Shown: positions 1,509 through 54,795, counted from the stretch's first letter. The stretch is DNA of 64,000 nt from Pontibacillus marinus BH030004 = DSM 16465 (GCF_000425225.1 NZ_AULJ01000012.1:1-64000), one strand, 5' to 3'. Numbers and translations: made by a program. Notes: a model not told the origin generated them from the letters alone.

Positions 1509-1680
1509 AGTTTCGAATTTAAATCTTCAGTATTCGGGCGCTTTTCTGGAATAAGGAAAGCCCTTTTTATTTGTCTTGATCGTATATTAGAGCAGGCTAT
1601 TAACTAGATATTTGTTTTAAAATTTGAGTTGGAAAAATGTACTTAAACTAGGCAGTTTGTTTAAATAATGGTGAGGGGGT
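1509..1680 (+). repeat. repeat R copy B plus leader module P
   Basis: R box (TTTCGAATTTAAATCTTCAG) and GGGCGCTTTTCTGGAATAAGG. The arms CTTTTC and GGAAAG, plus GGG and CCC, form a hairpin followed by TTTTTATTT, so it looks like an intrinsic terminator for the SUKH gene. Module P follows (about 1575-1680): a GTTTTAAAATTTGA segment, ACTTAAACTAGGCAGTTT and GGTGAGGGGG, the last serving as ribosome binding site of the next gene. Copy H at 32.7 kb matches this copy over about 150 bases. Confidence 0.8.
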
Positions 1681-1688
1681 AAAAGGGA

Positions 1689-1988
1689 ATTTCATATATA
1701 GATTGGAGACACTTAGTAGAAAAATTCACACCAGCAGGATACGTTGGTGATTGGGAATCTATTGCAATGGTATTTCTTGTACCTTTAGTTATATTAATCG
1801 CGAGAAAGTGGAAATGGTTTGCGGTTTTTCTAACATTAGATATACTTTTTGCTTATATGATATTTGATTATATTTTAAACGGTACTAATGCAAAGGGTAT
1901 GGTAATATTCTGGATTATAATTCTGTTACTGTATTTTGTTTCTTTAATACAATTAATATCTAATTTCTATAAAAAGAGAAATAGTTAG
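1689..1988 (+). CDS. small membrane protein, 99 aa, probable ATT start
   Basis: An ATG at 1767 gives 73 residues, but it has no ribosome binding site. The frame stays open upstream to ATT 1689, which sits 8 bases after GGTGAGGGGG (1671-1680) and adds a plausible N-terminal segment (ISYIDWRHLVEKFTPAGYVGDWES). I therefore call the longer form with an ATT start (inference). Two or three hydrophobic helices follow (about residues 27-40, 45-60 and 70-90), then a basic tail KKRNS. Family unknown. It is bracketed by R/P repeats B and C. Confidence 0.6.
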   Translation: MSYIDWRHLVEKFTPAGYVGDWESIAMVFLVPLVILIARKWKWFAVFLTLDILFAYMIFDYILNGTNAKGMVIFWIIILLLYFVSLIQLISNFYKKRNS

Positions 1989-2038
1989 GGATAATTCATA
2001 TTCAACAAGCGGGTGATTTAGCGAAACAGATTAATGAA

Positions 2039-2227
2039 AATCTCGAATTCAAGTCTTCAAGATTAGGGCGCGATTCTTTAATAAGAATTAGCGTCTTTTT
2101 TTTTATTTTCAGAATGTAAAGACAGAATAATTCCCTACTCAACCTAATTGGGTAATTATGTTAAAATGGAGGTGCATTGTGAAAAGAAGGTCTTAAACTA
2201 AAGAAGCAGTTTAATATATGAGGGGTT
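2039..2227 (+). repeat. repeat R copy C plus leader module P
   Basis: Best preserved R copy: CTCGAATTCAAGTCTTCA, AGGGCGC, arms GATTCTT/AAGAATT around TAAT, closing AGCGTC, then a T8 run. This is a convincing terminator. Module P (about 2140-2227) has AATTGGGTAATTATGTTAAAAT, GTGAAAAG and CTTAAACTAAAGAAGCAGTTT, ending in AGGGG, which serves the lipoprotein gene at 2234. Copy G at 7.05 kb has the same hairpin sequence and the same start of module P. Confidence 0.85.
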
Positions 2228-2233
2228 TTTAAA

Positions 2234-2713
2234 TTGAAAAATTTAATTCTGATATTTTCATCATTATTTATTTTTGGATGTTTGGTGGCTTGTAGTTCTG
2301 AACCAGCTGCCAAAGAAGATAATCAACCTAAAGAAAGTGCGGAACAAGCGAATAATAGTTCTGAAACTGCACAAACAAGCAAAAAAGAAGATATAGATGA
2401 AAAAAATGGATATGATTATTTTGTAAAGAACCGTGATGAAACAATAGAAAAGCTTGATTTGTTTGTTGAAGATGTAAGTAAAGGTATAGAAAGTGAAGTA
2501 GATGTTGTAACTATTTCAGATGAAGTAAGCTTTACTCGTAAATTATATTTTGATGGTGAATTTATCACAACACAGGAAATTGAAATCGAAGACAAACCTC
2601 TTAAATGTTCGAATATCGAGAAACGAAATTCGGAAGATTTAATTGTTTATCATTTATCCGAGTGCGAAAATACAGCAGGAATATTACAAGTTAATATACC
2701 ACCACAACAATGA
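2234..2713 (+). CDS. small lipoprotein, 159 aa
   Basis: TTG start behind GAGGGG. The N-terminus is a lipoprotein signal peptide: KN, a hydrophobic stretch, then the lipobox LVAC with the lipidated Cys near residue 20. A low-complexity acidic/Gln/Ser linker covers about residues 22-55, then a small globular domain with two further Cys (near 124 and 143) that could form a disulfide outside the membrane. No recognised family. It is a typical cargo of the array, sitting between leader P of copy C and a hairpin at 2734. Confidence 0.75.
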   Translation: MKNLILIFSSLFIFGCLVACSSEPAAKEDNQPKESAEQANNSSETAQTSKKEDIDEKNGYDYFVKNRDETIEKLDLFVEDVSKGIESEVDVVTISDEVSFTRKLYFDGEFITTQEIEIEDKPLKCSNIEKRNSEDLIVYHLSECENTAGILQVNIPPQQ

Positions 2714-2733
2714 TAATTAAACTAAAGGATGCA

Positions 2734-2775
2734 GTTACTTCAAGAAGGAGAACGCACCTTTCTAATTGAAGTAAC
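2734..2775 (+). repeat. long hairpin after the lipoprotein gene
   Basis: Perfect 10-base inverted repeat GTTACTTCAA / TTGAAGTAAC with inner arms GAAGG/CCTTTC. It is preceded by AACTAAAGGATGCAGTT, which resembles the end of module P. There is no T-run, so this is a structured RNA or attenuator rather than a standard terminator. It lies between the lipoprotein and the next small membrane protein. Confidence 0.6.
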
Positions 2776-2852
2776 GAGGCAGGTTTCTATAATAAAAAGG
2801 TAGCGTTAATAATTTGGGAATGGACAAAAAGCGGGGGAGAGATAGATTTCTT

Positions 2853-3044
2853 ATGAACAGAAAACTAATTGGAAATAGCATTAGTTCTTTTGGGTTAGGT
2901 GTGCTTGTAAGTGCAATTGTCCATCCTTTAGGTTTTATGGAAAGCGATAACGTGTTTTATATAATGATGTTAGTTGGGTTAATTTTAATTCAAATTGGAA
3001 GGAGTTACGGTGAATACAAGGGCGGTAAAAGAAAATCACAATAG
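2853..3044 (+). CDS. small membrane protein, 63 aa
   Basis: Begins at ATG 2853 with GGGGGAGA at 2833-2840; an upstream TTG at 2814 would add 13 residues but lacks a ribosome binding site. Two hydrophobic helices (about residues 8-24 and 33-49) are separated by HPLGFMESDN, with a basic C-terminal tail GGKRKSQ. Family not recognised. It belongs to the same run of small genes. Confidence 0.6.
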   Translation: MNRKLIGNSISSFGLGVLVSAIVHPLGFMESDNVFYIMMLVGLILIQIGRSYGEYKGGKRKSQ

Positions 3045-3435
3045 GTTTTAAATTTTCTTGTTAAAATAAACGGTAGCAAGAGATGAACAAGGGGCTGTGA
3101 TACGACAGTTTTTAAGCTATTACTGGTATTTTCTTATTGTAATATCACTAAAATGAAGGTAAGAAAGGTATAGGCAATGTGAAGAACTACACTTAAACAA
3201 ACGGGTGCAAGATTAAAAAAAATAGCATTTATCTCGAATTCAAGTAATCCACAAACGGGCGCTTTTCTGTAATAAACAGAGGTGCTCTTTTATTTATTTG
3301 GTGTTTCGTTTTAACAAAGATAAATACTTTACGATATTACTGTTATGGTGAATTATATGATTAGGGACTATATACAGAGTTATCCTAAAATGAATTCCCC
3401 TCGAATTATGATTGTTTTAAAGGGTGAAATAAGAA
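3045..3435 (+). repeat. gene-free 390-bp spacer with module P and repeat R copy D
   Basis: No coding frame is supported here. A P-like leader lies at about 3125-3215 (ATATCACTAAAATGAAGG, GTGAAGAAC, ACTTAAACAAACGGGTGCAAG). It runs directly into R copy D at 3229-3298 (CTCGAATTCAAGTAATCC, CGGGCGC, arms TCTGT/ACAGA, then TTTTATTTATTT). P followed by R with no gene between them looks like an empty unit whose cargo was lost or never inserted. The ribosome binding site AAGGGTGA of the next gene is at 3420-3427. Confidence 0.65.
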
Positions 3436-3696
3436 ATGACTTCCTTAATGTGGTTATCGGTTTGGGTAATTATTTTTAGTGTACTAGAATTTTTAATAAT
3501 TGCTGTCCTTCATAGTATCTTAGGCTTTAATAACTTACTTTACTTATTGCCCATAATCTTTTTTATTATAAATCCATTATTCATTGTATTTTCATTAAAA
3601 AGATTGCAAAGGAAGAAAAGGATAGTAGGAGCATTTATTTTGTTCTGTCCTTTGGTGTTCATATTCTGTATATGGATGTTTAATTTGCCAACTTAA
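3436..3696 (+). CDS. small membrane protein, 86 aa
   Basis: ATG with AAGGGTGA upstream. Strongly hydrophobic: three predicted helices (about residues 5-25, 32-52 and 63-82), with a basic loop KRLQRKKR between helices 2 and 3 that should face the cytoplasm. No family recognised. It sits between repeat copies D and E. Confidence 0.65.
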   Translation: MTSLMWLSVWVIIFSVLEFLIIAVLHSILGFNNLLYLLPIIFFIINPLFIVFSLKRLQRKKRIVGAFILFCPLVFIFCIWMFNLPT

Positions 3697-3789
3697 AAAG
3701 AAGAGTTCTTTCCTGATGTATCTTGAATGAACTTAATATATGTATTTGTTTTTATAGCCTTAACTGTTGGATCATAATCTGGAAAAGTA

Positions 3790-3957
3790 GTTATCTCGAA
3801 ATCAAGTCTTCCGCATAAGGGCGCTTTCCTGGCATAAGGAAAGTTCTTTTTATGTGTTATGATCATCTAATAGCGCAGGTTATAACTGGATATATGTGTT
3901 AAAACTTGAATTAGATTGTGAAACAGTGTAATTAAGCTAACAAATAATTTAATAGGG
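3790..3957 (+). repeat. repeat R copy E plus leader module P
   Basis: CTCGAAATCAAGTCTTCC, AGGGCGC, arms CTTTCC/GGAAAG around TGGCATAA, then CTTTTTATG: terminator-like. Module P follows with CTAATAGCGCAGGTTATAAC, GTGTTAAAACTTGAATTAG and GTGTAATTAAGCTAAC, ending in AATAGGGAG, the ribosome binding region of the acetyltransferase gene. Confidence 0.8.
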
Positions 3958-3967
3958 AGACAACAAT

Positions 3968-4495
3968 ATGGTATTTGAAACTGAAAGAATTTATTTTAGA
4001 AAGTTAGAAAAAGAAGATATATCAATTCTTCATCGCTGGCAAAATGATACGGAAGTATATTCGAATGTGAGTGACTCTATTGACTTATATAGTAAAGAAG
4101 ATATAGAAAAGTTTTATGACAAAATCAAGAATGGTAAAAACTTTATCATAGTAGAGAAAAATACAAATAAAGAAATTGGCAGAGTAGCATTACCCTTTCT
4201 AGATTATGAACAACAAAATACTGAAATTATAATTATGATTGGGGAAAAAGAATATTGGGGTAAAGGGTATGGAAAAGAATCATTTCAACTGCTATTAGAT
4301 TATATATTTAACGAACTTAATTTACATCGTGTGGGGCTAAAGGTATTTTCTTTTAATGAAAATGCATTTAAATTATACGAAAAATTTGGCTTTCAAGTTG
4401 AAGGGAAAATAAGAGAGTCATTTTATAGAAATGGGAAATGGCACGATATTTATTTAATGGGATTATTAAAAAGTGAATATTTAAAAGGAAATTAA
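3968..4495 (+). CDS. GNAT family N-acetyltransferase (RimJ/RimL/SpeG type)
   Basis: 175 residues, full length for a GNAT domain. It opens with the RimJ/SpeG-like ETERIYFRKLEKEDISILHRW. Motif A, which binds the acetyl-CoA pyrophosphate, is YWGKGYGKES (about residues 97-106). Motif B contains HRVGLKVFSFNENAFKLYEKFGFQVEGK, and the tail (FYRNGKWHDIYLMGLL) is typical. It transfers acetyl from acetyl-CoA to an amine, here unknown: protein N-terminus, polyamine or antibiotic are all possible. It has its own leader P and lies ahead of a decayed group II intron. Confidence 0.9.
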   Translation: MVFETERIYFRKLEKEDISILHRWQNDTEVYSNVSDSIDLYSKEDIEKFYDKIKNGKNFIIVEKNTNKEIGRVALPFLDYEQQNTEIIIMIGEKEYWGKGYGKESFQLLLDYIFNELNLHRVGLKVFSFNENAFKLYEKFGFQVEGKIRESFYRNGKWHDIYLMGLLKSEYLKGN

Positions 4496-4510
4496 ACAAA
4501 TATTCAAAAC

Positions 4511-4694
4511 CTTCTTATCCTACATGAAGATGTTCACCGACTGATTCATTCGAAGGAAAAGGAAAGAATAGATCACTATATCCATCACATAACATTAATC
4601 GAACCAAGTTAAATAAGATTAACAAATACCGTGATGGCATGCTCTGTGTGGAGCAGGGGAGAAGCTGGAGATAACGTCAAACGCTTACCTATTG
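4511..4694 (+). mobile_element. remnant of a group II intron (3' end)
   Basis: Reading from 4511 gives LLILHEDVHRLIH and then a basic helical segment, ending at a stop at 4610. This matches the C-terminal HNH region of group II intron reverse transcriptases (HEDVHRLIH is diagnostic). With a one-base shift the frame continues as NQVKKINKYRD, again like the maturase C-terminus, so the ORF is frameshifted. Downstream GTGTGGAGCAGGGGAGAAGC and GGAGATAACGTCAAACGC, ending CCTATTGCT, look like the domain V/VI region of such introns. The bulk of the intron is missing. Confidence 0.6.
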
Positions 4695-4730
4695 CTAACG
4701 AATCTTTAATAAGAATTTGCGTCTTTTCTC
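4695..4730 (+). repeat. repeat R, partial copy F (hairpin half)
   Basis: Only the hairpin and terminator part of R remains: AACGAATCTTTAATAAGAAT, then TTGCGTCTTTTC, nearly identical to the loop and 3' arm of copies C and G. The conserved upstream box is absent and replaced by the intron 3' end. The rest of 4731-4889 holds only a weak hairpin and T-rich sequence, with no gene. Confidence 0.6.
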
Positions 4731-4889
4731 TTCAGTCTTATATTCAGCTCTATTAATATATTTCTGTTTGGGGCAAGCTCAAGGTTTCTTGAGAAACAAT
4801 CGAAAAAACAGCGTAAAAAAATACAAGGGATGTCTATAACAAGGCATCCCTTTTCTATATTAATTATTTAGTTTCTAAGCGATTTATAT

Positions 4890-5468
4890 CTAATCATGGG
4901 ATAGCATATTAAACATATAGTCAAATAACTTGTCCTGGGTAATTCCGAGTTCATCGGAAGTAATCGCATGATGAACATTTAATCCATACCCTATAAGTAA
5001 GAAGAGTTGACTCACATTCGTCGCATCAATATTAGATGGAATAGCTCCATGTTCTTGTCCATAGCGTATCCATTCTTTCGATTGTTCCAAGACAGTTTTA
5101 TGATGTTGCTCTAATAGTTGCGCAACGGATGGATCATGTCGATGGGAGAGTAGATAAAGTATAATTTCATTGCTTACGCTATCAGAATTAAAGGTGAAAG
5201 TCTCCGTCGTTTGATAAAGCGGTGAATGAAGCTTTTCTTCAGCGGGGTTTTGTGCTGCTTCATAAAAACGCTGATTGACTTGTTCAAGCTTTGAAGTTAA
5301 TAATTTTGCAAAAAGTTCATTTTTACTTTTGACATAATGATAGATGCCACCCTTTGTTAGTTCTGTGCGTTCCATAATATCTTTTAGGGTTGTTTTTTGA
5401 CATCCTTTTTCTTTTATGAGGATTTCGGTATTATTTAAGATCGTTTGCCACGTACTGTTGTCCGTCAT
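4890..5468 (-). CDS. TetR/AcrR family transcriptional regulator
   Basis: 192 residues. The N-terminal TetR HTH is clear: AEILIKEKGCQKTTLKDIMERTELTKGGIYHYVKSKNELFAKLL-like sequence (about residues 10-52), with the recognition helix GGIYHYVKSK. The remainder is a helical ligand-binding and dimerisation domain. I chose the ATG at 5468 (AAAGGA eight bases upstream); ATGs at 5477 and 5510 are possible. It is divergent from a membrane protein gene with two palindrome-like sites between them, which suggests that it represses itself and that neighbour. Ligand unknown. Confidence 0.88.
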   Translation of the reverse strand: MTDNSTWQTILNNTEILIKEKGCQKTTLKDIMERTELTKGGIYHYVKSKNELFAKLLTSKLEQVNQRFYEAAQNPAEEKLHSPLYQTTETFTFNSDSVSNEIILYLLSHRHDPSVAQLLEQHHKTVLEQSKEWIRYGQEHGAIPSNIDATNVSQLFLLIGYGLNVHHAITSDELGITQDKLFDYMFNMLSHD

Positions 5469-5504
5469 TGGATTCATCCTTTCTTCTATCCTCTCATCAT
5501 ATAA

Positions 5505-5556
5505 AACCAACCAATGGTTTGTAAAACCCTCTTTACAAACCGTCGGTCGGTATGTA
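5505..5556. promoter_or_regulatory. candidate TetR operator pair
   Basis: Two imperfect palindromes lie in the divergent spacer: ACCAACCAATGGTTTGT (about 5506-5522) and TACAAACCGTCGGTCGGTAT (from about 5534). The ACC...GGT half-sites are typical of TetR-family operators. Assignment to the adjacent regulator is an inference from position. Confidence 0.5.
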
Positions 5557-5593
5557 AAACTGAAAATAACATAATAAAGGAGCTGAAAAGATC

Positions 5594-6286
5594 ATGTTTA
5601 ATTTTTTATTAATCGCTCATATTATAGGTGGTTTTAGTGCTTTATTCTTGCTATGGGTACCCATTTTCACAAAAAAAGGAGGAACGTGGCATACCAGAAC
5701 AGGTTGGATGTTTGTATATGCAATGAGTCTAGTGAGCATTTCAGCTGTAGGGCTGGCATTAATAAGAATCTTTTTTCAAACGCATACTTCAGCTGATCAG
5801 GTATCCTTTTCCATATTTCTCATTTTTATTGCTGTATTAAGTTCAATGTCAGCCTATTATGGAATTCGAGTTCTCCGTTACAAACGAAAATCGTCACGTC
5901 ATCGTAATAGCATGGACTTAGCTGCTTCATCCCTTTTATTCACCAGTGGAATAACTTGTTTGATTTATGGATTCATGATTGGAAATGGCTTAATTCAGTA
6001 TTTTCCCATTATTGGAGTTGTTTTAGGGGCTGCTCAACTGGCCTATTGGTTAAGACCCATGGCACACAAAAATAGTTGGATTGTTGAGCATATCGCAGGT
6101 ATGATGTCATGTGCGATATCAACAGTTACAGCGTTTACAGTTTTTGGGGCCCCGCGTTTATTTCAATTAGGTTCAGGAAACGTACTTTTATGGTTTTTGC
6201 CAACCATTGTATTTATTCCTATGATTATTGGGTTTAGTAGAAAGTACTCGCTTCCAAGAAAAGGGGAAGGTGTGAAAAGTGCATAA
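5594..6286 (+). CDS. multi-pass membrane protein, DUF2306-like, TetR partner
   Basis: 230 residues with about seven hydrophobic helices. The first helix, FLLIAHIIGGFSALFLLWVP, is followed by KKGGTWHTRTGWMFVYAMS, a helix-His-Gly arrangement like that of DUF2306-type small membrane proteins. Further His occur at HRNSMDLAAS and near VEHIAG. Basic C-terminus. No enzymatic function is assigned. It starts at ATG 5594 behind AAAGGAG and is transcribed away from the TetR gene, so it is the probable regulated target and may respond to a toxic or lipophilic ligand. Confidence 0.65.
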   Translation: MFNFLLIAHIIGGFSALFLLWVPIFTKKGGTWHTRTGWMFVYAMSLVSISAVGLALIRIFFQTHTSADQVSFSIFLIFIAVLSSMSAYYGIRVLRYKRKSSRHRNSMDLAASSLLFTSGITCLIYGFMIGNGLIQYFPIIGVVLGAAQLAYWLRPMAHKNSWIVEHIAGMMSCAISTVTAFTVFGAPRLFQLGSGNVLLWFLPTIVFIPMIIGFSRKYSLPRKGEGVKSA

Positions 6287-6432
6287 AAAAGATTAAATGA
6301 AATCATGAGAAAAGGAAGAAATGTACTACTTACGTTTAGATTAGAGGAAGTAATAAACATAGATTGACAAGATTTTATTATAATAAATAAAAAGTTACTA
6401 ACGTATTATTTATGTGAAAGGATGATTACTGT

Positions 6433-6771
6433 ATGTTTATTTCAGTTACTAGGTTGCATTTAAAAGGAAAGCGAAAATTACCTAAATTTTTCTTTCATAC
6501 AATTAAGTCCATTCTTCAGTCAAAAAAAGCAGAAGGACTAAAATTTTCTTCTTTTAACAAAGAAGGATGGGATACATACTGGACTCTAACCGTATGGGAA
6601 AGTAAGGAAGATATGATTTTTTTTAGAAATAATGGTAATCATTTAAAAGCAATGAAAACATCACGAACTATAGCAGATAAATTAGAGTATATTAACTGCG
6701 AGAGAGAAACTATACCTACTTGGAATGAGTGTAAAGACAAATTATATAAGAAGTATGGAAGACTTGAGTGA
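6433..6771 (+). CDS. ABM/DUF3291-like small protein
   Basis: 112 residues, cytoplasmic. The pattern SVTRLHLKGKRKLPKFFFHT ... GWDTYWTLTVWESKEDMIFFRNNGNHLKAM is that of ferredoxin-like ABM-fold proteins: a first strand, then WTLTVWES, then the RN..H..AM helix. It often appears in proteins annotated as DUF3291 or monooxygenase-like; activity is unproven. ATG follows AAAGGATGA. A truncated VOC-family gene fragment lies immediately downstream. Confidence 0.65.
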   Translation: MFISVTRLHLKGKRKLPKFFFHTIKSILQSKKAEGLKFSSFNKEGWDTYWTLTVWESKEDMIFFRNNGNHLKAMKTSRTIADKLEYINCERETIPTWNECKDKLYKKYGRLE

Positions 6772-6777
6772 GTTTAA

Positions 6778-7020
6778 AAGTTTCTAAAAAGAGTTGGTTC
6801 AGCTCAAGAAAAACAAAGAGAACAACACCCTACTGTTCTACGTTTTGATGTAGACTCGTTAATTACTGAGGTAGAAAGGTTAGAGGATCGCGGAGTTGTC
6901 TTTTTACATAGAAGTTTAAATTTTGATTGGAGGAAAATTGCAGTTTTTAAGGACCCTGATGGAAATAGAGTTGAATTAGGAGAAATTAATAGATCCAGCG
7001 GTTTATATATACCAAATTAA
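6778..7020 (+). pseudogene. truncated glyoxalase/VOC-family gene fragment
   Basis: An open frame of about 80 codons, with no start codon or ribosome binding site, follows an in-frame stop at 6775. It reads HPTVLRFDVDSLITEVERLE, then GVVFLHRS, then KIAVFKDPDGNRVELGEI, ending at TAA 7018. The last part is the classic C-terminal strand of VOC (glyoxalase/bleomycin-resistance) domains, whose E is a metal ligand. The N-terminal half is missing, so this is a decayed remnant. It is followed within 40 bases by repeat copy G. Confidence 0.7.
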
Positions 7021-7052
7021 CAAAATTTATTGTTTAAGAATATTTTAGCAAT

Positions 7053-7231
7053 TTATCTCTAATTCAAGTATTCAACATAAGGGCGCGATTCTTTAATAAG
7101 AATTAGCGTCTTTTTTTATTTTCGAAACGATAAGGAAGAAGAATTCTCTTCGTAATCTAATTGGGTAATTATGTTAAAATTGAGTAGCATTGTGAAAAGA
7201 TAATCTTATACGAACTGGGTGGGTTATCTTA
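7053..7231 (+). repeat. repeat R copy G plus leader module P
   Basis: CTCTAATTCAAGTATTCA, AGGGCGC, arms GATTCTT/AAGAATT, AGCGTC and T7: same hairpin as copy C. Module P (about 7150-7231) carries AATTGGGTAATTATGTTAAAAT and GCATTGTGAAAAG as in copy C, then diverges. It lies 90 bases before the nucleosidase gene and is the last copy of the 5' array. Confidence 0.85.
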
Positions 7232-13816: not shown

Positions 13817-14467
13817 ATGGACGTAATACAGAAAATCACCGAGATCGGCCAATATATGATTGAGAATTGGGCCCATCTCTTGAGTTTAACCTTCGACCAT
13901 ATATTAATGGTGTTATACGGAATGGTTCTGGCAGCAGTAGTTGGTATTTCTCTTGGAATTGTTTGCGCAAAATTTGAAAAGGTGGCACCTATCATTTTAT
14001 CTATTGCAAACATTATTCAAATCATCCCAAGTCTAGCATTACTTTCAATTATTATGCTTTATTTTGGACTGGGCTTTACTACTGTAGTCATTGGGTTGTT
14101 CTTGTATTCTCTTTTACCAATCATTCGAAATACGTATGTAGGATTAAAAGAAGTTGATGGTCATGTATCAGAAGCTGGAAAAGGGATTGGTATGACCCCC
14201 TTCCAATTGTTATATAAAATTCAGATTCCTCTAGCGCTACCATTTATGATGGCAGGGGTACGAATCGCTACCGTTATTGCAGTAGGTGTTGCCTCTATAG
14301 CTCCCTTTGTAGGGGGAGATGGATTAGGCCGTGAAATTGTGTCTGGTATTAACAGTCGTAATGAAACTATGATTTATGCTGGTGCAATTCCTGCGGCGAT
14401 TCTAGCAGTTTTAGCTGACCTTATCTTAGGGAAGTTAGAGAAACGCCAAAAGAACAAAATAGCTTAA
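13817..14467 (+). CDS. opuCD: osmoprotectant ABC permease
   Basis: 216 residues, six predicted membrane helices. EAA-type loop: DGHVSEAGKGIGMTPFQLLYKIQIPLALPFMMAGVR. The C-terminal GGDGLGREIVSGINSRNETMIYAGAIPAAILAVLADLILGKLEKRQK is characteristic of OpuCD/ProW-like subunits. The gene completes the opuC-type set. It is followed within 19 bases by a peptidase-like gene, so the transport operon probably extends into that gene. Confidence 0.9.
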   Translation: MDVIQKITEIGQYMIENWAHLLSLTFDHILMVLYGMVLAAVVGISLGIVCAKFEKVAPIILSIANIIQIIPSLALLSIIMLYFGLGFTTVVIGLFLYSLLPIIRNTYVGLKEVDGHVSEAGKGIGMTPFQLLYKIQIPLALPFMMAGVRIATVIAVGVASIAPFVGGDGLGREIVSGINSRNETMIYAGAIPAAILAVLADLILGKLEKRQKNKIA

Positions 14468-14485
14468 TAATGAATAGGTGAATAT

Positions 14486-15667
14486 ATGATAAGCAAGGTT
14501 ATGGAACGCCTAGAGAACCTTTATGAAGAGATGGTAGAGATAAGAAGAGATTTGCATATGTATCCTGAGCTCTCTTTTGAAGAGGTTCGCACACCTGAGA
14601 TCATTGCGAATTATCTATCTGACTTAGGTTTAGAAGTGAAAACAGGTGTAGGTGGAAGAGGAGTTGTAGCTACTCTTAGAGGTAACAAACCTGGTAAAAC
14701 TGTAGCACTAAGGGCAGACTTTGATGCCCTTCCCATTCAAGAAAAAAATCAAGTGCCTTATAAGTCTACTGTACCAGGTGTTATGCATGCCTGTGGTCAT
14801 GATGCACATACGGCAATCGTTTTAGCCATTGCTAAGGCATTAAGTGAAAATACAGAAGTATTAGAAGGAAATGTAGTATTTATTCATCAGCATGCTGAAG
14901 AACAAGTGCCAGGTGGTGCGATCAAGATGATTGAAGACGGGTGCTTAGATGGAGTAGATGCCATCTTTGCACCTCATATGGAAAACTATCATCCTGTTGG
15001 TAGCATTGCATATAGAAGTGGTCCAATTATGGCTGCATCAGATCGATTTGAGATTGATATCATTGGTAATGGAGGGCATGGCGCTTTTCCACACCATACG
15101 AAAGATTCAGTAGTCATCGGTAGTCAATTAGTAACCAATTTACAACAAGTCATTAGTAGAGAGATTGATCCCTTAAAAGAGGCCGTGTTGTCTATCGGAT
15201 CTTTTCATTCAGGTGAAGGGTATAATGTAATTGCTGGAGAAGCATCTATTAAAGGAACGGTACGGACTTTTGATGAAGATGTTAGAAATAGTATTGAGGA
15301 AAAGATTAAGAGAATTGTTGAAGGGACCTGTCATGCTGCAGGAGCCTCATATAAGTTTCAATATAAGCGAGGATATCCTGCAACGATTAATCATGAACAA
15401 GAAACTGAGATATTAGTTGAATCTGCAAAGGATCTATTAAAGAATGAACAAATTATTGAGATTCCTCCGAACATGGGAGGAGAGGACTTTGCTTATTTTC
15501 TGCAGAAAGTTCCTGGTTCTTATGTTTTCTTTGGATCAGCTAACCCTGATATAGGAGCCATACACCCTTATCATCATCCTGAATTTGATATTGATGAACA
15601 GGTCATGCTCTATGCCTCAAAAATATTAACTCGTACTGTGGTTAATTATTTACAGAATTATGCTTGA
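14486..15667 (+). CDS. M20D family amidohydrolase (N-acyl-amino acid hydrolase type)
   Basis: 393 residues, full length. Removes acyl groups from amide-linked amino acids or related amides in the cytoplasm using a two-metal centre. Motifs: RRDLHMYPELSFEE, ALRADFDALPI (about 75-84), the metal-binding HACGHDAHT (101-109), HQHAEEQVPGGA, and NMGGEDFAYF near the C-terminus. Joining an opuC-type operon is unusual and suggests that the imported compound is an N-acylated or amide osmolyte or precursor (inference). ATG 14486 with TAGGTGA upstream; terminator-like hairpin after the stop. Confidence 0.88.
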   Translation: MISKVMERLENLYEEMVEIRRDLHMYPELSFEEVRTPEIIANYLSDLGLEVKTGVGGRGVVATLRGNKPGKTVALRADFDALPIQEKNQVPYKSTVPGVMHACGHDAHTAIVLAIAKALSENTEVLEGNVVFIHQHAEEQVPGGAIKMIEDGCLDGVDAIFAPHMENYHPVGSIAYRSGPIMAASDRFEIDIIGNGGHGAFPHHTKDSVVIGSQLVTNLQQVISREIDPLKEAVLSIGSFHSGEGYNVIAGEASIKGTVRTFDEDVRNSIEEKIKRIVEGTCHAAGASYKFQYKRGYPATINHEQETEILVESAKDLLKNEQIIEIPPNMGGEDFAYFLQKVPGSYVFFGSANPDIGAIHPYHHPEFDIDEQVMLYASKILTRTVVNYLQNYA

Positions 15668-31586: not shown

Positions 31587-31662
31587 TGGACAAGCGGCAT
31601 GTTAGTTACATAATTTTACCTTTTTTGTGTGTTGGGTAACTCGAAACTGAGTATTACTTTTA

Positions 31663-31700
31663 AGGGCCATTATGTTGAAGACTTGGATTCGAGAAAATAA
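31663..31700 (-). repeat. repeat R, inverted degenerate copy I
   Basis: Reads on the minus strand as TTTTCTCGAATCCAAGTC, then TTCAACATAA and TGGCCC: the conserved R box followed by a degenerate GGGCGC. The hairpin is not well kept. It lies downstream of the minus-strand CBO0543-like gene in that gene's own orientation, which preserves the gene-then-R order of the 5' array. From 31701 to 31861 I see only AT-rich sequence with a small hairpin near 31822. Confidence 0.65.
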
Positions 31701-32407: not shown

Positions 32408-32685
32408 GGAACAAGCACCTCTCGTATTTAATTCAATTCAATTTTTATTGTTTTCATGGTTTTCTTTTATATTCGATGAATTATATGTAATAAAAAAGCA
32501 CACAGCTTTAAGCTATGTGTTAACTCTGGAACTGAGGGGAAATGCTCAGATTTCAAAATGTATATTTATTTACATTTAGTTTTAACAAAAGAATTATTTT
32601 TATAAGTGGTATTAAAGTTTTGATACACATCACGAAGATAATGCGTCATCACTTAATACCGGTTAAATGTTTTTTGAGTGAAGAG
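32408..32685. other. intergenic region without genes
   Basis: AT-rich spacer. It contains a hairpin near 32496-32520 with arms ACACAGCTT and AAGCTATGTGT, lying just 5' of the CBO0543-like gene. I see no coding frame that I can support. Confidence 0.4.
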
Positions 32686-32866
32686 GATCTCGAATTCAAG
32701 TCTTCATGAATAGGGCGCTCTCCTGGAATAAGAGTCCTTTTTATTTGTCTTGATTGTCTAATAGAGCGAGTTATTAATTGGATATTTGTGTTAAAATTTG
32801 ATTTGGATTGTGAAAAAATATACTTAAACAAAGTAGTTTTATAAATAATTGGTGAGGGGGTATTAA
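32686..32866 (+). repeat. repeat R copy H plus complete leader module P
   Basis: CTCGAATTCAAGTCTTCA, AGGGCGCTCTCCTGGAATAA, arms CTCT/AGAG, then CCTTTTTATTT. Module P follows (CTAATAGAGCGAGTTATTAA, GTGTTAAAATTTGA, TACTTAAACAAAGTAGTTT, GGTGAGGGGG). It is collinear with copy B over about 150 bases at 30 kb distance. The ribosome binding site at its end has no gene after it: it abuts the truncated, opposite-strand lipoprotein fragment. Confidence 0.8.
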
Positions 32867-54707: not shown

Positions 54708-54795
54708 ACATAACTATAGGGCAAACTTATCGAAAGGTAAGGACGCAAAGCTACGGACCTAAGGTATAAAGTACGATGGTCGCCTGGCTGCTTAA
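54708..54795 (+). promoter_or_regulatory. cyclic di-GMP-I (GEMM) riboswitch
   Basis: Conserved GEMM-I elements in order: AGGGCAAAC, GAAA tetraloop (ATCGAAAGGT), AAGGACGCAAAGCTACGGAC, CTAAGG, then the second hairpin with GATGGTCGCCTGGCTGC. The P1 strands and tetraloop-receptor spacing agree with the class. It is followed by a terminator hairpin at 54808 and the chemoreceptor gene at 54866, so c-di-GMP probably switches between termination and read-through of that gene. Confidence 0.9.

Follow-up and report, generated by a model that had tools for sequence, protein, structure and literature searches.

The hairpin repeats in the first 7 kb of the window (the whole stretch of 64,000 nt of Pontibacillus marinus DNA that was analysed) are probably the joints of an integron-like cassette system of Bacillales, in which the recombination site doubles as an intrinsic terminator; we put the probability of this reading at about 0.8. 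Each joint would be a tyrosine-recombinase core site, and crossover inside its 6-bp GGGCGC overlap would exchange cassettes. The left arm and an accessory box would move with the upstream gene, and the right arm, the remaining hairpin, the promoter, and the next gene would move together as the following cassette. For the upstream gene, the right arm and its 3′ complement would fold with GGGCGC into a putative intrinsic terminator. An incoming cassette with a GCGTC- or GCCC-like 3′ arm would rebuild this terminator behind its new upstream neighbour. Two demands, strand exchange and stem formation, would thus each keep GGGCGC unchanged. The likely enzyme is an array-encoded 280-aa tyrosine recombinase of the Xer/XerA-like type, itself borne on a cassette.

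Sites and cassettes in the window and in related genomes

The six repeat copies in the first 7 kb each lie 3′ of a gene and on the strand of that gene, with the layout TTATC-TCGAATTCAAGTCTTC-N7-GGGCGC-N5-TGGAATAA (R sites). All are on the + strand. At site A (795-842), the accessory box and left arm are followed by the core GGGCGC (823-828) and the right arm, and the hairpin is weak; its upstream flank was found again before a different cassette at L033:274 and L052:18272. Site B (1508-1568) has its core at 1536-1541, a hairpin at 1536-1563, and a T-run at 1564-1568. A T-run also follows the hairpins of sites C (2038-2104; core 2066-2071, hairpin 2066-2096), D (3229-3291; core 3257-3262, hairpin 3257-3287), E (3791-3852; core 3819-3824, hairpin about 3820-3847), and G (7053-7118; core 7081-7086, hairpin 7081-7111). 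A lone seventh site is found on the + strand at 32685-32731 (core 32713-32718). A 29-nt pattern of box and core, with up to three mismatches, matched six times in the window and not once in 100 shuffles. An Rfam scan of the window gave no match at the R sites.

Counted from core to core, the sites delimit a series of intervals on the + strand. Cassette A-B (823-1541) carries a SMI1/KNR4 (SUKH) gene (1016-1456), cassette B-C (1536-2071) encodes a 73-aa membrane-like protein (1767-1988), cassette C-D (2066-3262) a lipoprotein-like protein (2234-2713) and a 76-aa protein (2814-3044), and cassette D-E (3257-3824) an 86-aa membrane-like protein (3436-3696). The interval E-G (3819-7086) contains the genes for a GNAT acetyltransferase (3968-4495) and, on the minus strand, a TetR-type regulator (4890-5510), together with other genes.

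Arrays were also found in the same-genus genomes G001, G002 (a single complete contig), and G007. In array loci totalling 667,823 bases, 228 sites reached a PSSM score of at least 18, versus none on the reversed sequence. A sequence-only site model matches the genome of the window itself at 150 or more places, two other site classes included. An exact pattern scan of genome contigs was too strict and gave one match, in Bacillus sp. CHD6a. The R sites of one array are direct repeats, all on one strand, and the median distance between consecutive sites is 823 bp. The largest ORF is on the site strand in 132 of the 148 ORF-bearing cassettes. A promoter-like TGnTAnAAT motif occurs in 47 of 141 leaders, versus 5 in the reversed control, and many cassettes seem to have a promoter of their own; neither a platform promoter (Pc) nor an attI site was identified.

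Several additional arrangements were observed. A hairpin half-site (CGAATCTTTAATAAGAATTTGCGTC) without R box is located at 4699-4732 of the window and is probably a decayed joint. At 31641-31692, two R boxes stand head to head around GGGCCA/TGGCCC and form a palindrome of about 64 bp; such palindromes are also present at L032:3718, L054:3034, and L057:9497, and three head-to-head sites are identical over 300 bases, but to just one side. At the loci L010, L014-L017, L021, L022, L026-L028, and L030 of the same genome, the R box ends dispersed GC-rich repeats, in which a GGGGGC-like core is followed by a degenerate TGGAATAA arm. Some of these repeats adjoin a minisatellite (gctcgggtaggcgacggaat); they are found where many contigs end and have probably interrupted the assembly. 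The locus L105 (G088 contig C17, 78001-98000) has 25 sites in 20 kb, often paired per spacer at a distance of about 46 bp and with differing cores (GGGGGC, GGGCAG). The window also contains a c-di-GMP-I riboswitch (54710-54795, + strand).

Hairpins and core sites

The sequence-only reading had proposed that the hairpin arms differ between copies yet remain paired, and that a T-run follows each hairpin. Both points were confirmed for the copies that it had named: the arms are CTTTTC/GGAAAG at site B, CTTTCC/GGAAAG at site E, TCTGT/ACAGA at site D, and ATTCTT/AAGAAT plus a G-U pair at sites C and G, and T-runs are present 3′ of the hairpins. Compensatory change also holds for the 44 distinct copies of the same genome, which were aligned without gaps. 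The stem covariation score is 0.527 compared to 0.267 for shuffles, the fraction of paired cells in the five upper stem pairs is 73.6% compared to 55.9%, and 55 stem cells are double-changed compared to 24.5; none of these values was reached in 500 shuffles. The true stem register scores highest, and all slid registers score lower.

A strict-register stem count labelled many real hairpins as lacking a stem, and therefore the folding of real copies was compared with that of chimeras, which join the 5′ part of one copy to the 3′ part of another. The 119 non-redundant copies, taken from several genomes, gave −11.2 kcal/mol for the real hairpins and −8.2 kcal/mol for the chimeras (p=6e-13). An MFE of −8 kcal/mol or lower was obtained for 90 of the 119 copies, and a T-rich stretch follows in 78 of these 90. 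Seventeen of the 119 are nearly structureless (MFE above −5 kcal/mol), and the copy before the recombinase gene is without terminator. The proposed selection for a terminator thus stands in part: the paired structure is kept by compensatory change, but the terminator is not universal. Most of the hairpins look like intrinsic terminators, with termination predicted from the observed pairing.

The invariant box had been thought to lie outside the stem, which turned out to be wrong: the GGGCGC at its 3′ end forms the stem base. Of the 90 stable hairpins, 89 pair three or more bases of this hexamer, and 81 pair five or more. The hairpin loop TGGAATAA shows stronger conservation than the stem and keeps it in copies that do not form a hairpin. 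As far as its sequence tells, this loop is the right arm of the recombination site.

The site consists of two imperfect inverted arms that flank the invariant 6-bp core. The left arm is of the AGTCTTCAGYAAAC type and is preceded by the accessory box TTATCTCGAATTCA, which was found only in R-type sites; the right arm (N4 CTGGAATAAG) is imperfectly inverted relative to it. The arm-to-arm match probability of R sites is 0.452 at the true register and 0.23-0.34 at slid registers. The symmetry is clearer in related sites of other Bacillales genera (CTTATTCAACWAWC-GGGNGC-inverted arm), with 0.538 at the true register compared to 0.24-0.35. Judged by this layout, the site is a tyrosine-recombinase core site with a 6-bp overlap, and its arms would be bound by the recombinase. 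By eye, the consensus around GGGCGC shows no evident RYYYAAC/GTTRRRY pair as in attC sites.

The strong covariation, the T-runs, and the agreement of site and gene orientation are also compatible with the view that the repeats are intrinsic terminators under RNA selection, with a protein-bound upstream box and without any recombination. However, selection for termination leaves unexplained why the arms are symmetrical, why the loop TGGAATAA is conserved even in stemless copies, why flanks switch exactly at GGGCGC, and why cassettes have precise core-to-core ends (see below), and we regard it as very improbable.

Junctions, moved cassettes, and leader sites

To the extent that the sequence records it, the history of cassette exchange can be read from pairs of sites with flanks common to one side only. 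All such pairs were collected, and identities were counted for each position class; the site pairs and the genomes compared share phylogeny and are not independent. The N5 to the right of the core is identical at 5/5 positions in all 17 downstream-shared pairs (4% expected by chance), one of which (L042:5465/L052:772) looks orthologous and is uninformative. In these pairs, the N7 agrees no better than by chance (3.3/7), and neither does the 21-nt box. Conversely, the N7 to the left of the core is identical at 7/7 positions in 11 of the 15 upstream-shared pairs (1.4% expected by chance), and the N5 is random. Because the N5 stays with the downstream side and the N7 with the upstream side, the exchange point maps to the GGGCGC hexamer. 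Not every junction lies at the core, since 4 of the 15 upstream-shared pairs lose part of the N7. In other genera, the junction test yielded one informative pair only.

Whole cassettes were found to have moved. Three cassettes of 937, 816, and 447 bp are 100% identical from core to core in other arrays, where both neighbours are different, and the window cassette 1536-2066 has a 95% identical copy on contig C50 of the same genome, again with different neighbours on both sides. Such core-to-core copies in new contexts are what is expected if each cassette is a discrete mobile unit with a single site. Simple pairs of an empty and an occupied site were not found among the genomes G000, G001, G002, and G007. 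Recombination, which the sequence-only reading had named beside protein binding as one possible reason for the invariant box, is the better of these two guesses and fits both the junction mapping and the core-to-core cassettes.

Homologous recombination between dispersed repeats could also shuffle genes, without a dedicated enzyme. The repeats have about 48 nt in common, many of their leaders resemble one another (631 downstream flank pairs), and a few junctions lie to the left of the core, all of which would suit this explanation. It predicts crossovers across the whole 48-nt site and the leader, whereas the downstream-shared pairs combine a random box and N7 with a 100% identical N5, which places the switch within six bases. 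We therefore consider homologous recombination improbable and favour site-specific exchange within the core.

A second type of site is present in the leaders. It has the left arm TGTACTTAAGCTAAC and the core GGGCAG, which is found about 120 nt past the first core in 17 cassettes, versus 0 in the control. In the leader of cassette E, such a site lies at 3927-3947 (+ strand), with the left arm TGTAATTAAGCTAAC and a degenerate core position at 3942-3947. In 21 cassette pairs with related leaders and unrelated genes, the identity is 0.98 up to the end of the second-type left arm and falls to 0.32 directly behind it; these leader pairs are few and not independent. The pattern suggests that terminator-promoter modules have been swapped separately from the genes.

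The array-encoded recombinase and comparison with known systems

A 280-aa tyrosine recombinase is encoded in the arrays, with two copies in the genome of the window (contigs C66 and C70), one in G002, and two in G001; remnants were also detected. The protein matches Phage_integrase (PF00589, 1.5e-39) and scores 220.4 with the XerA-like model NF040815 (cutoff 220). R138, K162, H229, H255, and Y264 are invariant and R232 is nearly so among 15 homologs (62-100% identity); by family motif, we take these residues to have the catalytic roles R-K-H-R-H-Y. An AlphaFold model has a pLDDT of 80 and a pTM of 0.57. In G001, the recombinase gene is in a cassette of its own between two sites, and at L060 a site is directly upstream of the gene and an R box downstream.

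About one in four of 101 Bacillales genomes has a relative with at least 58% identity, with a clear gap to the housekeeping Xer proteins (at most 43%); further relatives are encoded on large plasmids, among others in Peribacillus and Sporosarcina. A phage collection contained no close relative, all proteins having less than 60% identity. Five or more sites, counting either type, are present in 15 of 15 genomes with a near-full-length recombinase, compared to 48 of 86 genomes without one. The association is significant for counts with the general site model (R2 model; p=1e-4); for R-site counts alone, it is not (p=0.19). Several genomes, e.g. G007, have many R sites but no intact recombinase of the family, so that one has to suppose orphan arrays or the action of another Xer. 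Every one of the related genomes encodes housekeeping Xer-like proteins. The array-encoded protein is a better candidate for the catalysis of exchange than the host XerC/XerD, which we infer from its location, its family, its intact catalytic residues, and its co-distribution with the sites. In G002, two integrase-like genes close to where a cassette array ends (L053:7853-9070 and 14214-15389) perhaps belong to an inserted prophage or integrative element.

Single-gene cassettes, direct arrays, and a site at the cassette end would also be expected of a canonical integron, with IntI acting on folded single-stranded attC sites. However, the recombinase scores 103 bits with the IntI model TIGR02249 (cutoff 265), and in a comparison with the PDB only its stretch 203-267 aligns to IntI4. 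The sites resemble duplex Xer-type core sites with inverted arms. Apparent promoters in many cassettes and a recombinase that is itself in a cassette also speak against an integron, which we regard as the least probable of the explanations weighed. We lean slightly towards a cassette class of the Bacillales' own that is independent of IntI and combines a self-mobile Xer-like recombinase, duplex core sites that serve as terminators, and GGGCAG leader sites that swap terminator-promoter modules.

In textbooks, it is integrons that let bacteria acquire and reshuffle individual genes. If the proposed reading is true, the Bacillales system would fill the niche that integrons have left empty in Firmicutes; a widespread, separately evolved cassette system would explain how the large accessory gene pools of Bacillales are maintained and exchanged. 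The site would restore a terminator after each insertion, so that every cassette would stay insulated. Complete integrons are almost absent from Bacillales, integrons in general are nearly absent from Firmicutes, and their rarity outside a few clades, including the poverty of Firmicutes, has been noted as unexplained (PMC9024848). The open-access literature on Bacillus cassette arrays, integron-like systems of Firmicutes, and dif modules of Gram-positive bacteria yielded no description of the system; subscription papers and preprints were outside the scope, and it may be described elsewhere.

Like integrons, the arrays run in one direction, consist mostly of cassettes with a single accessory gene, have a recombination site where each cassette ends, and come with a tyrosine recombinase of their own. 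In contrast to integrons, the recombinase is Xer/XerA-like and cassette-borne, the site is an inverted-arm core with a 6-bp GGGCGC overlap that doubles as a putative terminator, and many cassettes appear to have promoters. In pdif modules, two recombinase arms flank a 6-bp spacer that has to be (nearly) identical for exchange, and shuffling is of the Xer type (PMC13141974). The arrangement of two arms around a 6-bp spacer, with crossover in the spacer, is common to the R sites and the pdif sites of Acinetobacter plasmids (XerC/XerD). The R sites, however, are direct repeats in long chromosomal arrays that encode the recombinase, and are fused with a putative terminator, whereas pdif sites form alternating inverted C and D modules. 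Like intrinsic (Rho-independent) terminators, the R sites combine a stable G+C-containing hairpin and a T-rich stretch at a gene end; unlike ordinary terminators, the base of the 5′ arm would be the recombination overlap, a recombinase arm would make up the loop, and the larger part of the hairpin would belong to the downstream cassette.
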